DNA of 60,044 nt from Kiloniellaceae bacterium (lineage in GTDB: Bacteria > Pseudomonadota > Alphaproteobacteria > Kiloniellales > J153). Shown here piece by piece: positions 18,607 through 23,617 of this stretch. The notes under the pieces are model-generated. The model worked only from the letters and a program-made list of their open reading frames with translations. It was not told where the DNA came from and searched no databases. Position 1 is the first letter of the stretch. The number at the start of each line of letters is the position of its first letter. The stretch is from the NCBI GenBank assembly GCA_021776095.1, contig JAJFGO010000089.1:1-60044 (forward strand). The letters run 5' to 3'. A program made the translations under genes and the position numbers.

Positions 18607-18635
18607 TTGAAACGCGGCGGGCGCAGGAATATAGC
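18607..18635 (+). promoter_or_regulatory. sigma-70-type promoter of the otsB-GH15-otsA-glk operon
   Basis: -35 TTGAAA (18607-18612), exactly 17 bases of spacer, -10 TATAGC (18630-18635), with transcription expected near 18642, about 50 bases before otsB. It lies in the 205-base divergent gap with pheT. Confidence 0.6.
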
Positions 18636-18691
18636 AAGCGGTTACACCCCCTAGCGGTTCTTTGCACCGACCTGCAGTTTTGGAACCTTTC

Positions 18692-19462
18692 GTGAACTTA
18701 CCCGCGCTTCCCTCCGTCGTCGGCCTGGTCCCAGACCCGCGCTGGGCCCTGCTCTTGGATGTAGACGGCACCCTTCTTCACATTGCGGAAACGCCCGACG
18801 GCGTGGTCCGCAGCGCCACCTTGTGCCACCTTCTGTCGCGTCTGGTCCCGGCGCTGGACGGCGCCGTGGCCCTGATCAGCGGCCGGACGATCGAGGATCT
18901 GGACCGCCTGTTCGCGCCACTGAAGCCGCCGGCCGCCGGCCTGCACGGCCTGGAGCACCGCAACGCCCAAGGACAAGTCAGCACCCTCGGCGAGGCTAAG
19001 GCGCTCGATCACCTGCGCGCGCCCCTGGCCGAATTCGCCGCCGGTCACAAGGGCCTGCTGCTGGAGGACAAGGGCCGGGCCCTGGCCTTTCACTACCGCC
19101 TCGCGCCGCAGCGGGAAGCGGAGGTCAAGCACAAGATCGAAACCTTGACCGGCGGCACGCAAGACCTGCGGACGATCCATGGCAAGATGGTCGTGGAGAT
19201 CAAGCCACGGCATGCCGACAAGGGCTCGGCCGTGCGGGCCTTCATGGCCGAGGCCCCGTTTCGCGGCCGGATTCCGGTCTTCCTGGGCGACGACGTTACC
19301 GACGAGGACGCCTTCGAGGCCGTGAACGACCTGAACGGCCTGTCGATTTGCGTCGATCCGGCGCAAGAGACCGCCGCACGCTATCGCCTGAACGGCGTGG
19401 ACCAGGTCTTGCAATGGCTGGCCCGAATAGCCGACTCTTTGAATCCCGGCGGCGAGGAGTAA
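18692..19462 (+). CDS. otsB: trehalose-6-phosphate phosphatase
   Basis: A 256-residue HAD-superfamily phosphatase that makes trehalose from trehalose 6-phosphate. HAD motif I is DVDGTL with catalytic Asp23 and Asp25, the SGR motif follows, the conserved Lys is in HGKMVVEIKP, and motif IV is GDDVTDEDAF, all diagnostic for OtsB. I chose the GTG at 18692; a TTG at 18662 in the same frame is the alternative, and neither has a strong ribosome binding site. It is first of four tightly packed genes (otsB, GH15, otsA, glk) reading away from pheT. Confidence 0.93.
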   Translation: MNLPALPSVVGLVPDPRWALLLDVDGTLLHIAETPDGVVRSATLCHLLSRLVPALDGAVALISGRTIEDLDRLFAPLKPPAAGLHGLEHRNAQGQVSTLGEAKALDHLRAPLAEFAAGHKGLLLEDKGRALAFHYRLAPQREAEVKHKIETLTGGTQDLRTIHGKMVVEIKPRHADKGSAVRAFMAEAPFRGRIPVFLGDDVTDEDAFEAVNDLNGLSICVDPAQETAARYRLNGVDQVLQWLARIADSLNPGGEE

Positions 19463-19465
19463 GTT

Positions 19466-21250: not shown

Positions 21251-22644
21251 GCCGCCTGGTCGTGGTCTCCAACCGCGTCGCCCCAGCGCGCAGCGGCGGC
21301 GGCACCGGCGCCGAGGGGGGCTTGGCGGTCGCGATGCAGGGCGCCCTGAAAGACAGGGGCGGGGTCTGGTTCGGCTGGAGCGGCAAGACCGCGCCGCACG
21401 ATTCGGGCAAGGCCGACATCGTCGAAATCGGCGCCACTTCCTATGCCACCGTCGATCTTTCTCAACAGGATTACGACGAGTATTACACCGGCTACGCCAA
21501 TTCGGTTCTTTGGCCGCTGTTTCACAATCGGATCGACCTGACCGACTTCTCCCGCCGCGACCGGGCCGGCTATCAGCGGGTCAACGCCTTGTTCGCCGGT
21601 CATCTGCAGCCCTTGCTGCAAAAAGACGACGTGGTCTGGGTGCATGATTATCATTTCATACCCCTGGGCGAATTTCTCAGGCAGGCCGGATGCACGCAGA
21701 AGCTGGGGTTTTTCCTGCATATTCCCTGGCCGCCAATGGAAATACTCCTGGCCCTGCCGAACCACCGATCGCTCGTTCAACAGCTTTGCACCTATGACCT
21801 GATCGGGTTTCAGACCGAGGCCGACAAGCATGCCTTCCTGGAATACATTCAGCAGGAAGCCGGTGGCGAGGTGCTATCGGGCGGCCGTATTAGAGCCTTT
21901 GAGCAAACGCCCGCGGTCAAGGTCTTTCCGATTAGTATCGATACCGCCGATGTCGCCACCCTGGCACGCCGGGCAGAGAACGGGGCGCAGAGCAAGCGCC
22001 TCAAGAAAAGCCTTCTGAACCGCCAGTTGATCACCGGCGTCGACCGCCTGGACTACACCAAGGGCCTGATCGAGCGCCTGGAAGCCTATCAGCATTTGCT
22101 CTCCCGCTATCCGGCCTACCGGGGCCATGTCACCCTGCTGCAGATCGCGCCGCCGTCGCGCAGCGATCTGGCCGACTATCAGCGGATGCGGCGCCAGGTC
22201 GAGACAATTGCCGGTCACATCAACGGCACCTACGCCGAATTCGACTGGTCGCCGGTGCGCTACCTCAACCGCGGCTTCAAGCGCCAGACGCTCATGGGAT
22301 TTCTGAGACTGAGCACTGTCGGCCTGGTCACGCCCCTGCGCGACGGCATGAACCTGGTGGCGAAGGAATTCGTCGCCGCGCAGAATCCCGAGGACCCCGG
22401 CGTCCTGGTACTGTCGCGTTTCGCTGGCGCGGCACGGGAGTTGGAAAGCGCGCTGATCGTCAATCCCTACGATATCGAAGGCGTCGCCGAGACCTTGGCG
22501 AAGGCCCTGTCCATTCCGATCGAGGAACGGCGCGAACGTTGGTCGGCGATGTTCAAGCATCTGAGCCGTTACGATCTGATCTATTGGCGGGAATCCTACC
22601 TGCGGGCCCTGGAGGCCGCGCCCTGCGCCGCCGCCGCGGCTTGA
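21247..22644 (+). CDS. otsA: trehalose-6-phosphate synthase
   Basis: A 465-residue GT20 glycosyltransferase that joins UDP-glucose (or another NDP-glucose) to glucose 6-phosphate. Visible: [11 protein letters not shown] in the N-terminal loop, [38 protein letters not shown] for the G6P site, and [18 protein letters not shown] for the nucleotide-sugar site. The start is a TTG that overlaps the GH15 stop (TTGA) and is preceded by GGGAGGA, so translation is coupled. Glk begins 4 bases after its stop and could supply its G6P. Confidence 0.95.
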
Positions 22645-22648
22645 GTCC

Positions 22649-23617
22649 ATGAAAGTCGGCATACCTGGCGGTCGCGCCCTGCTGGGCGATATTGGCGGCA
22701 CCAATGCCCGCTTCGCCATTCTCGAAAACGGCGAGGTCGGGCACGCGGACACGCTGAGCGTTGCCACCCATGGGACCGCGATCGATGCCGTTGCCGCCTA
22801 CCTAAGTGGCCTGCCCAAGGGGCAGCGGCCGGGCGCCGCGGCACTCGCCTGCGCGGGACCGGTCGAAAACGGCACGGTGGTCATGACCAACAGTCCGTGG
22901 CGGATTGAGGCGGGGGAGATCGAACGCCAATTTGGTTTCGCGCGGGCCCTGGTCGTGAACGATTTCGCCGCGCAGGCTTGGGCGGTGCCGGGCCTGGGCG
23001 CCGCCGATTTGCACGCCATTGGGCGCGGCATAGCCAGACCCGACCGCCCCGCCGCCATCCTGGGGCCGGGCTCCGGCCTGGGCATCTCAAGCTATCTGCC
23101 GCCCCCAAAGGGGCCGGCTGTGGCCGTCGGCGAAGGCGGTCACGCAACCATGCCGGCCACCGACGACCGGGAGGCCGCGGTCCTGGCCGCACTGCGTGCG
23201 CGCTTCGGCCACGTCTCGGCCGAACGGGTTCTTTCCGGCAACGGATTGGTCCGCCTCCACGAGGCGCTGGCCGAGCTTGAAGGCCGGGCCGGAGCGCGGC
23301 GGAGCGCGGCGGAGATCACCGAAGCGGCCGGCACCGGCGCTTGCAAGCACAGCGCCGCCGCGCTCGATCTCTTTTGCGCCATGCTGGGCACCTTCGCGGG
23401 GAACCTGGCGCTAACGCTCGGCGCGCAGGGCGGCGTCTATATCGCCGGCGGCATCGCGCCGCGCATGGTCGACTACTTGGCCAGGTCGAAATTTCGCGAC
23501 CGCTTTGAAGCCAAGGGCCGGTTCAAAGCCTACCTCGCGGCCATACCGACATGGGTCGTGACCCATCCCACGCCCGCTTTCCTGGGCCTCGCGCGGATCC
23601 TGGCGCAGCCGGACTGA
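22649..23617 (+). CDS. glk: glucokinase, proteobacterial Glk type
   Basis: A 322-residue ATP-dependent glucose kinase of the E. coli Glk family (not a ROK kinase). The phosphate loop GDIGGTNAR is at 13-21, followed by ALACAGPVENG, the glucose-binding VVNDFAAQA, GPGSGLG, GEGGHATMP and the C-terminal GGVYIAGGIAPRM and THPTPAFLG. It is the last gene of the trehalose cassette. If the GH15 enzyme releases glucose from trehalose, this kinase returns it to G6P for OtsA or glycolysis. It is convergent with pheS, 11 bases away. Confidence 0.95.
   Translation: MKVGIPGGRALLGDIGGTNARFAILENGEVGHADTLSVATHGTAIDAVAAYLSGLPKGQRPGAAALACAGPVENGTVVMTNSPWRIEAGEIERQFGFARALVVNDFAAQAWAVPGLGAADLHAIGRGIARPDRPAAILGPGSGLGISSYLPPPKGPAVAVGEGGHATMPATDDREAAVLAALRARFGHVSAERVLSGNGLVRLHEALAELEGRAGARRSAAEITEAAGTGACKHSAAALDLFCAMLGTFAGNLALTLGAQGGVYIAGGIAPRMVDYLARSKFRDRFEAKGRFKAYLAAIPTWVVTHPTPAFLGLARILAQPD

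Follow-up and report, generated by a model that had tools for sequence, protein, structure and literature searches.

In the 60,044-nt window analysed here (Kiloniellaceae bacterium, GenBank assembly GCA_021776095.1, contig JAJFGO010000089.1), pheS and pheT, which encode the two subunits of phenylalanyl-tRNA synthetase, both lie on the minus strand and are parted by a plus-strand cassette of four genes: otsB, a GH15-family hydrolase gene, otsA and glk (about 18692–23617). Our comparison with relatives points to a real interruption of an essential operon, old and derived, by a horizontally acquired operon on the opposite strand, and this interruption was probably reversed in a sister branch of the genus. 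The component parts of the locus are ordinary; its site, age and likely reversal are unusual. The history that we favour, and consider fairly probable, is one insertion before the genus radiated, followed by excision in the common ancestor of two of its members, with pheT served by its own promoter. Throughout, G000 denotes the window's genome, G006, G007 and G008 the three other genomes of its genus, and f1, f5, f6 and f7 families within the order.

The interrupted operon and the origin of its insert

Across an order-wide sample of 61 genomes, pheS and pheT were found on one contig and strand in 53, and the two genes are adjacent in 50 of these 53 (gap between profile matches ≤323 bp), the non-adjacent cases being G000 (5190 bp), G006 (5257 bp) and G028 (1839 bp). 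Since the pair is contiguous in so many genomes, the interruption is derived and ancestral separation can be ruled out, bearing out the preliminary description of this DNA, made from its letters alone, which had proposed an insertion. Usable pheS or pheT rows were obtained from 57 of the 61 genomes and none from the other four; no pair on a single contig was found in G001, G029, G032 and G040, and four weak rows that scored under the family cut-offs were excluded (G023:C5 for pheS; G012, G055:C87 and G039:C72 for pheT). DNA has entered the boundary between the two genes on at least two occasions in the order, because G028 carries a separate, unrelated insert, a PcfJ-like open reading frame (ORF) on the same strand between pheS and pheT (L163:752–2212); the same kind of ORF lies directly before pheT in G029 (L164:9–1478), which has the same genus code as G028.

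The four cassette genes also stand between pheS and pheT in G006, on a 198-kb contig and in the order and orientation seen in the window, with identities to the window of 84% for GH15, 85% for otsA, 70% for otsB and 66% for glk. The closest named relative by pheT is a Kiloniellaceae metagenome-assembled genome (JAJFGJ010000016.1, 84%). With 122 contigs and an estimated contamination of 4.44%, the window's genome is a fragmented one, which might raise the thought of misassembly, an objection already named in the preliminary description; however, an identical layout in a genome with 80–85% DNA identity in pheS, pheT, GH15 and otsA rules this out and leaves an artefact with a negligible chance of explaining the split.

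Elsewhere in the order the cassette is a recurrent unit. GH15 matches occur in 37 of the 61 genomes, four of which also have weaker paralogues, and we fetched regions of 5 to 19 kb from 22 of the 35 further genomes that have one. GH15 adjoins otsA in all 22 regions, glk follows in 21 and otsB is matched in 13, giving the gene order of the window, whereas the location is different: no pheS or pheT match is present in any of the 22 fetched regions, and only in G000 and G006 does the unit stand between the two synthetase genes.

In a quick tree of GH15 and otsA from 28 genomes, the G000 and G006 cassettes group together (100, starred) inside a clade with G025–G027 of f5 and G034 and G029 of f6 (100, starred), and the cassettes of three other members of their own family, f1, form a separate group (99, starred). 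The pheS and pheT tree places the genus with its own family (support 83). Single-gene trees recover the G000 and G006 copies as sisters (GH15 100/99.8, otsB 99/95, glk 94/87), and approximately unbiased (AU) tests reject an f1 cassette clade for GH15 (6.9e-43) and otsB (0.0018). Because these cassettes group with f5 and f6 and not with f1, the trees indicate that the cassette is horizontally acquired, the direction of transfer being read from the nesting. Base composition gives no sign of foreign origin: GC content at third codon positions is 0.79–0.85 in the cassette and 0.77–0.88 in seven core genes. Neither a transposase nor an integrase is present among the scanned proteins and no tRNA lies nearby; the longest word shared between the insert junctions is 9 bp, and the repeats of 16–26 bp within 14600–24800 do not frame the insert.

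Probable gain and loss, and possible exchange, of the cassette within the genus

A protein tree of ten genes, all taken from the window (11043–39240) and with some outgroup rows incomplete, gave the topology (G000,(G006,(G007,G008))) with 100/100 on the branches within the genus, and a {G000,G006} grouping was rejected (AU 8.65e-10; 1.19e-19 with pheS and pheT excluded). At a second locus, situated on a different contig and made up of a methionine-aminopeptidase-like gene with its two neighbours (nine genomes), the DNA likewise recovered {G006,G007,G008} (100/99.8) and rejected {G000,G006} (AU 0.021; codon positions 1+2, 0.004). The DNA of pheT yielded the same genus tree (100/100; {G000,G006} AU 0.0003; positions 1+2, 0.020), and the alternative grouping was also rejected by the DNA of lepA (0.0155), thrS (0.0149) and gltB (5.7e-07; positions 1+2, 0.005), as well as by the gltB protein (0.0037). 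With trees of this form, it is very probable that the genomes with the interrupted state do not make up a clade of their own. Such a paraphyly is absent from the preliminary description, and it does not support the simple insertion in the window's own lineage implied there; nor does the divergence of the cassette between G000 and G006, which is at least that of the core genes.

Cassette divergence bears on the age of the insertion. Synonymous divergence (dS) between G000 and G006 is 0.81 for GH15, 0.98 for otsA, 1.01 for otsB and 1.34 for glk, compared with 0.48 for rplT, 0.64 for pheS, 0.73 for lepA, 0.77 for pheT, 0.80 for thrS, 0.90 for a GT4 gene and 1.06 for infC among seven flanking core genes, values near 1 approaching saturation. 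Since the cassette values are no lower than those of the core genes, the separation of the cassette copies is at least as old as that of the genomes. Between G000 and G006, purifying selection has acted on the four cassette genes as well as on pheS and pheT (dN/dS 0.10–0.22).

At the joined locus of G007 and G008, pheS and pheT overlap by 4 bp (ATGA), with the pheS stop inside the pheT start, an overlap seen only in these two genomes among the 27 order loci read. Their pheS ends in TGA, that of G000, G006, G003, G004 and G005 in TAG and that of G002 in TAA; judged from these letters, the junction in G007 and G008 appears to be secondary. The pheS end and the pheT start of G006 have GCTAT as their longest shared word, and a deletion between its two copies would yield GGGCTATGAAATTC, one synonymous base off the GGGTTATGAAATTC of G008. 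No match to GH15, OtsA or Glk was found anywhere in G007 and G008, with OtsB not searched for on its own and G008 an estimated 89% complete.

In the history that we favour, an otsB–GH15–otsA–glk unit would have been acquired from a lineage related to f5 and f6 and would have entered exactly at the pheS/pheT boundary, on the opposite strand, before the genus diversified; both synthetase genes were left intact. A later deletion in the G007/G008 ancestor, reaching from the pheS stop to the pheT start, would have removed the cassette and created a contiguous pheST with a new ATGA overlap; this deletion step is deduced from the trees and the junction letters.

Several observations weigh against a gain followed by a loss. 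By unweighted count it is no shorter than two gains, or a gain and a transfer. The grouping of G000 with G006 is not rejected by the second-locus proteins (AU 0.056; {G006,G007,G008} support 60/37), by the proteins of pheT (0.105), pheS (0.454) and lepA (0.089), by pheS DNA (0.168), whose codon positions 1+2 even prefer it (61/65), or by codon positions 1+2 of thrS and lepA (0.113 and 0.079). ATGA overlaps are widespread among other alphaproteobacteria, where 15 of 31 named loci have one, and GCTAT is just 5 bp long and absent from G000. With regard to the origin of the cassette, an f1 clade is borderline for glk (AU 0.0501), searches for a transposase, a tRNA and junction repeats marked no insertion mechanism, and for glk and otsB, G000 shows little more identity to G006 (66% and 70%) than to G026 (63% and 65%), a strong divergence that could reflect fast evolution or separate acquisition. 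Finally, G000 and G006 share a state on the other side of pheT, which speaks for locus exchange and makes separate losses less likely, and mainly for this reason our confidence in gain then loss is not higher. Both have a dinB-family gene (14800–15315, plus strand, PF05163) and an M24-family peptidase gene (15322–16059, plus strand, PF00557) behind pheT, and both are without the NTP_transf_6 gene kept there by G007, G008, G002 and G003. The dinB–M24 pair runs head-on to pheT, with the convergent stops of pheT and the M24 gene 9 bp apart, and among the family genomes read at this site it is present only in G000 and G006.

An exchange of the locus would explain this shared flank more simply, and the chief alternative, which we regard as possible but rather unlikely, builds on it: a single insertion in one lineage, after which homologous recombination in pheS and pheT carried the cassette, perhaps together with dinB–M24, from one of the G000 and G006 lineages to the other soon after their split, G007 and G008 never having had it. 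Such a transfer accounts at once for the cassette and the dinB–M24 pair that both genomes have and for the NTP_transf_6 gene that both lack. A {G000,G006} grouping is not rejected when the first 450 bp of pheT are tested (AU 0.44), with site likelihoods leaning that way by up to 4.9 units, and exchange does occur at the locus, as a cupin gene behind pheT is 96–98% identical between G007 and G008, compared with 78–92% along pheT. However, pheT after base 450 (0.0002) and the last 450 bp of pheS (0.013) both reject the grouping, the TGA/ATGA junction of G007 and G008 is left unexplained, and a cassette dS equal to or above that of the core genes would put any such transfer almost as far back as the split itself. 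Most of pheT argues against G000 and G006 having simply exchanged the locus in its entirety.

Under simple parsimony on the ten-gene tree, separate insertions of related cassettes into this boundary, one in G000 and one in G006, take just as many steps as gain and loss, and they would suit the unusual divergence of glk and otsB, but the sister relationship of the two copies for GH15, otsB and glk, their identical orientation and shared intergenic blocks, and a GH15 and otsA path (0.19) similar to the ten-gene path (0.18) make this quite improbable.

A need for balanced subunits is the usual explanation of why pheS and pheT are adjacent. In this genus the split of the pair is roughly as old as the separation of two of its lineages, and one branch has the pair joined, which makes that explanation testable through expression ratios in close relatives. 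If the favoured gain and loss are correct, they suggest that an interrupted essential operon is repairable by simple deletion. In the operon 'life cycle', operons are broken up by gene insertion and the downstream gene gains its own control; foreign genes interrupt a conserved operon in that scheme as they do here, whereas at this locus a single essential enzyme depends on both parted genes for its subunits, an entire opposite-strand operon has been inserted, and a sister branch may have reversed the interruption. Separate transcription units for subunits needed in equal ratio are also described for gyrA and gyrB in PMC8359277, where they are located at separate chromosomal sites; pheS and pheT, by contrast, share a strand and are parted by 5 kb that hold an opposite-strand operon. 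No account of the present arrangement was found among the titles and opening lines of abstracts listed, which for some queries cover part of the hits, in a literature search that is weak on subscription journals.

Gene content and expression of the locus

On the minus strand, thrS, infC, rplT and pheS follow in succession, then, on the plus strand and read backwards from the pheS end, come glk, otsA, GH15 and otsB, followed by pheT, again on the minus strand. Open reading frames and profile scans thus upheld the gene order of the preliminary description, including the opposite-strand cassette, the 11-bp spacing at the pheS end and the divergent start of pheT. The gene functions given here are all inferred from sequence, with rpmI, too short for the ORF list, left out of the identity scan; rplT, infC and thrS score above their curated cut-offs, as do pheS, glk, otsA, otsB and pheT. 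pheS, for the alpha subunit of phenylalanine--tRNA ligase (23629–24708, minus strand; TIGR00468, 336 bits against a cut-off of 237), ends in ...VRGL and TAG, 11 bp from the convergent stop of the glucokinase gene glk (22649–23617, plus; TIGR00749, 269 against 225; PF02685). The trehalose-6-phosphate synthase gene otsA (21247–22644, plus; TIGR02400, 581 against 565) starts, by the sequence letters, at TTG 21247 in a TTGA overlap with the GH15 stop, replacing a start at 21163. The trehalose-6-phosphate phosphatase gene otsB (18692–19462, plus; TIGR00685, 169 against 68) is open from TTG 18662, and GTG 18692 is the likelier start, favoured because GTGAAC is also present in G006. pheT, for the beta subunit (16069–18486, minus; TIGR00472, 679 against 403), has its ATG at 18486, 205 bp from this likely otsB start.

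The GH15 protein (19466–21250, plus) passes the Pfam models for the GH15 catalytic domain (PF00723, 190.5 bits) and TREH_N (28.2 bits), and scores below the cut-offs of both trehalase equivalog models, NF041084 (300.7 against 820 bits) and a second TreH1/TreH2 model (237.2 against 1000). In view of these low scores, from models that are archaeal by name, we assign the protein to the GH15 family and call it a probable trehalase. Both OtsA and OtsB exceed their curated cut-offs, as expected of OtsAB trehalose synthesis, and on the basis of its protein families the cassette probably encodes a trehalose cycle, in which OtsA and OtsB would make trehalose, the GH15 enzyme would split it and Glk would return glucose to glucose-6-phosphate.

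Two conserved blocks lie in the divergent gap between pheT and otsB. The first (18594–18634, plus strand) is identical to G006 at 39 of 41 positions, the best of 40 shuffles reaching 26, and its only matches at E ≤0.5 among the fetched order loci are those in G000 and G006. It holds the candidate otsB promoter TTGAAA-17-TATAGC (18607–18635) that the preliminary description had proposed; the block fits a sigma-70 promoter, but our consensus scanner did not list it, because the second hexamer is without the required final T. The second block (18547–18575, minus strand; 25 of 29 ungapped positions identical to G006, best of 40 shuffles 21) contains a candidate pheT promoter (TTGCCC at 18573–18568) that is suitably placed and a weak match to the consensus. 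These two blocks make it probable that pheT has a promoter of its own within the 205-bp gap that it shares with otsB. The uncoupling of pheS from pheT and the need of pheT for a new promoter, both put forward in the preliminary description, would agree with a conserved block that fits a promoter, but read-through may still join the two genes in one transcript.

We consider it unlikely, though compatible with either the gain-and-loss or the transfer history, that pheS and pheT are still one transcription unit, with polymerase reading through the cassette antisense. The architecture suits such a noncontiguous operon, as opposite-strand genes stand between two genes whose products are needed jointly, and terminator signals at chance level leave room for read-through: 15900–25300 has one weak terminator-like site on the minus strand, and its total of 7 sites compares with 7.1 in shuffles. 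A search for RNA leaders found no Rfam family at gathering score in 10000–34000. Against read-through stand the conserved block at promoter distance from pheT and the 5-kb untranslated antisense stretch that would be exposed to Rho, long untranslated antisense RNA being open to Rho termination. Noncontiguous operons are described in PMC7154746, with menE-menC-MW1733-ytkD-MW1731 of Staphylococcus aureus as an example; in both cases linked same-strand genes have opposite-strand coding between them, the layout that defines such operons, whereas here four genes and 5.1 kb intervene, co-transcription is hypothetical and a divergent promoter region is likely. More doubtful still is the further proposal that, with pheS and pheT on one message antisense to the trehalose operon, trehalose cycling and the supply of phenylalanyl-tRNA synthetase would repress each other. 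If the one-message reading were true, the genus would hold interrupted and re-joined forms of one operon, a natural before-and-after experiment.

The interval behind pheT

The dinB–M24 flank of pheT was absent from the preliminary description. The nearest M24 proteins outside the genus belong to the f7 genomes G054, G050 and G052 (62–64%), and because the nearest cassettes are in f5 and f6 the pair appears to be a separate acquisition; a common source for it and the cassette is unsupported. Behind pheT, G007 and G008 carry a cupin gene (matching the DMSP_lyase profile) and the NTP_transf_6 gene, which also follows pheT in G002 and G003 and has no match in G000, G006, G001, G004 and G005. The high identity of the cupin genes (L068, L066) is a sign of recent exchange, and since it exceeds that along pheT, the stretch behind pheT does undergo exchange. 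Between pheT and lepA, content turns over among G000, G006, G007 and G008 (dinB–M24, cupin, NTP_transf_6 and a membrane-protein-like ORF), so that the interval looks like a hot spot. In the window, the gap between dinB and lepA (14694–14800) contains two copies of the palindrome GCTATAGC; the -10 element of the candidate otsB promoter is likewise TATAGC.

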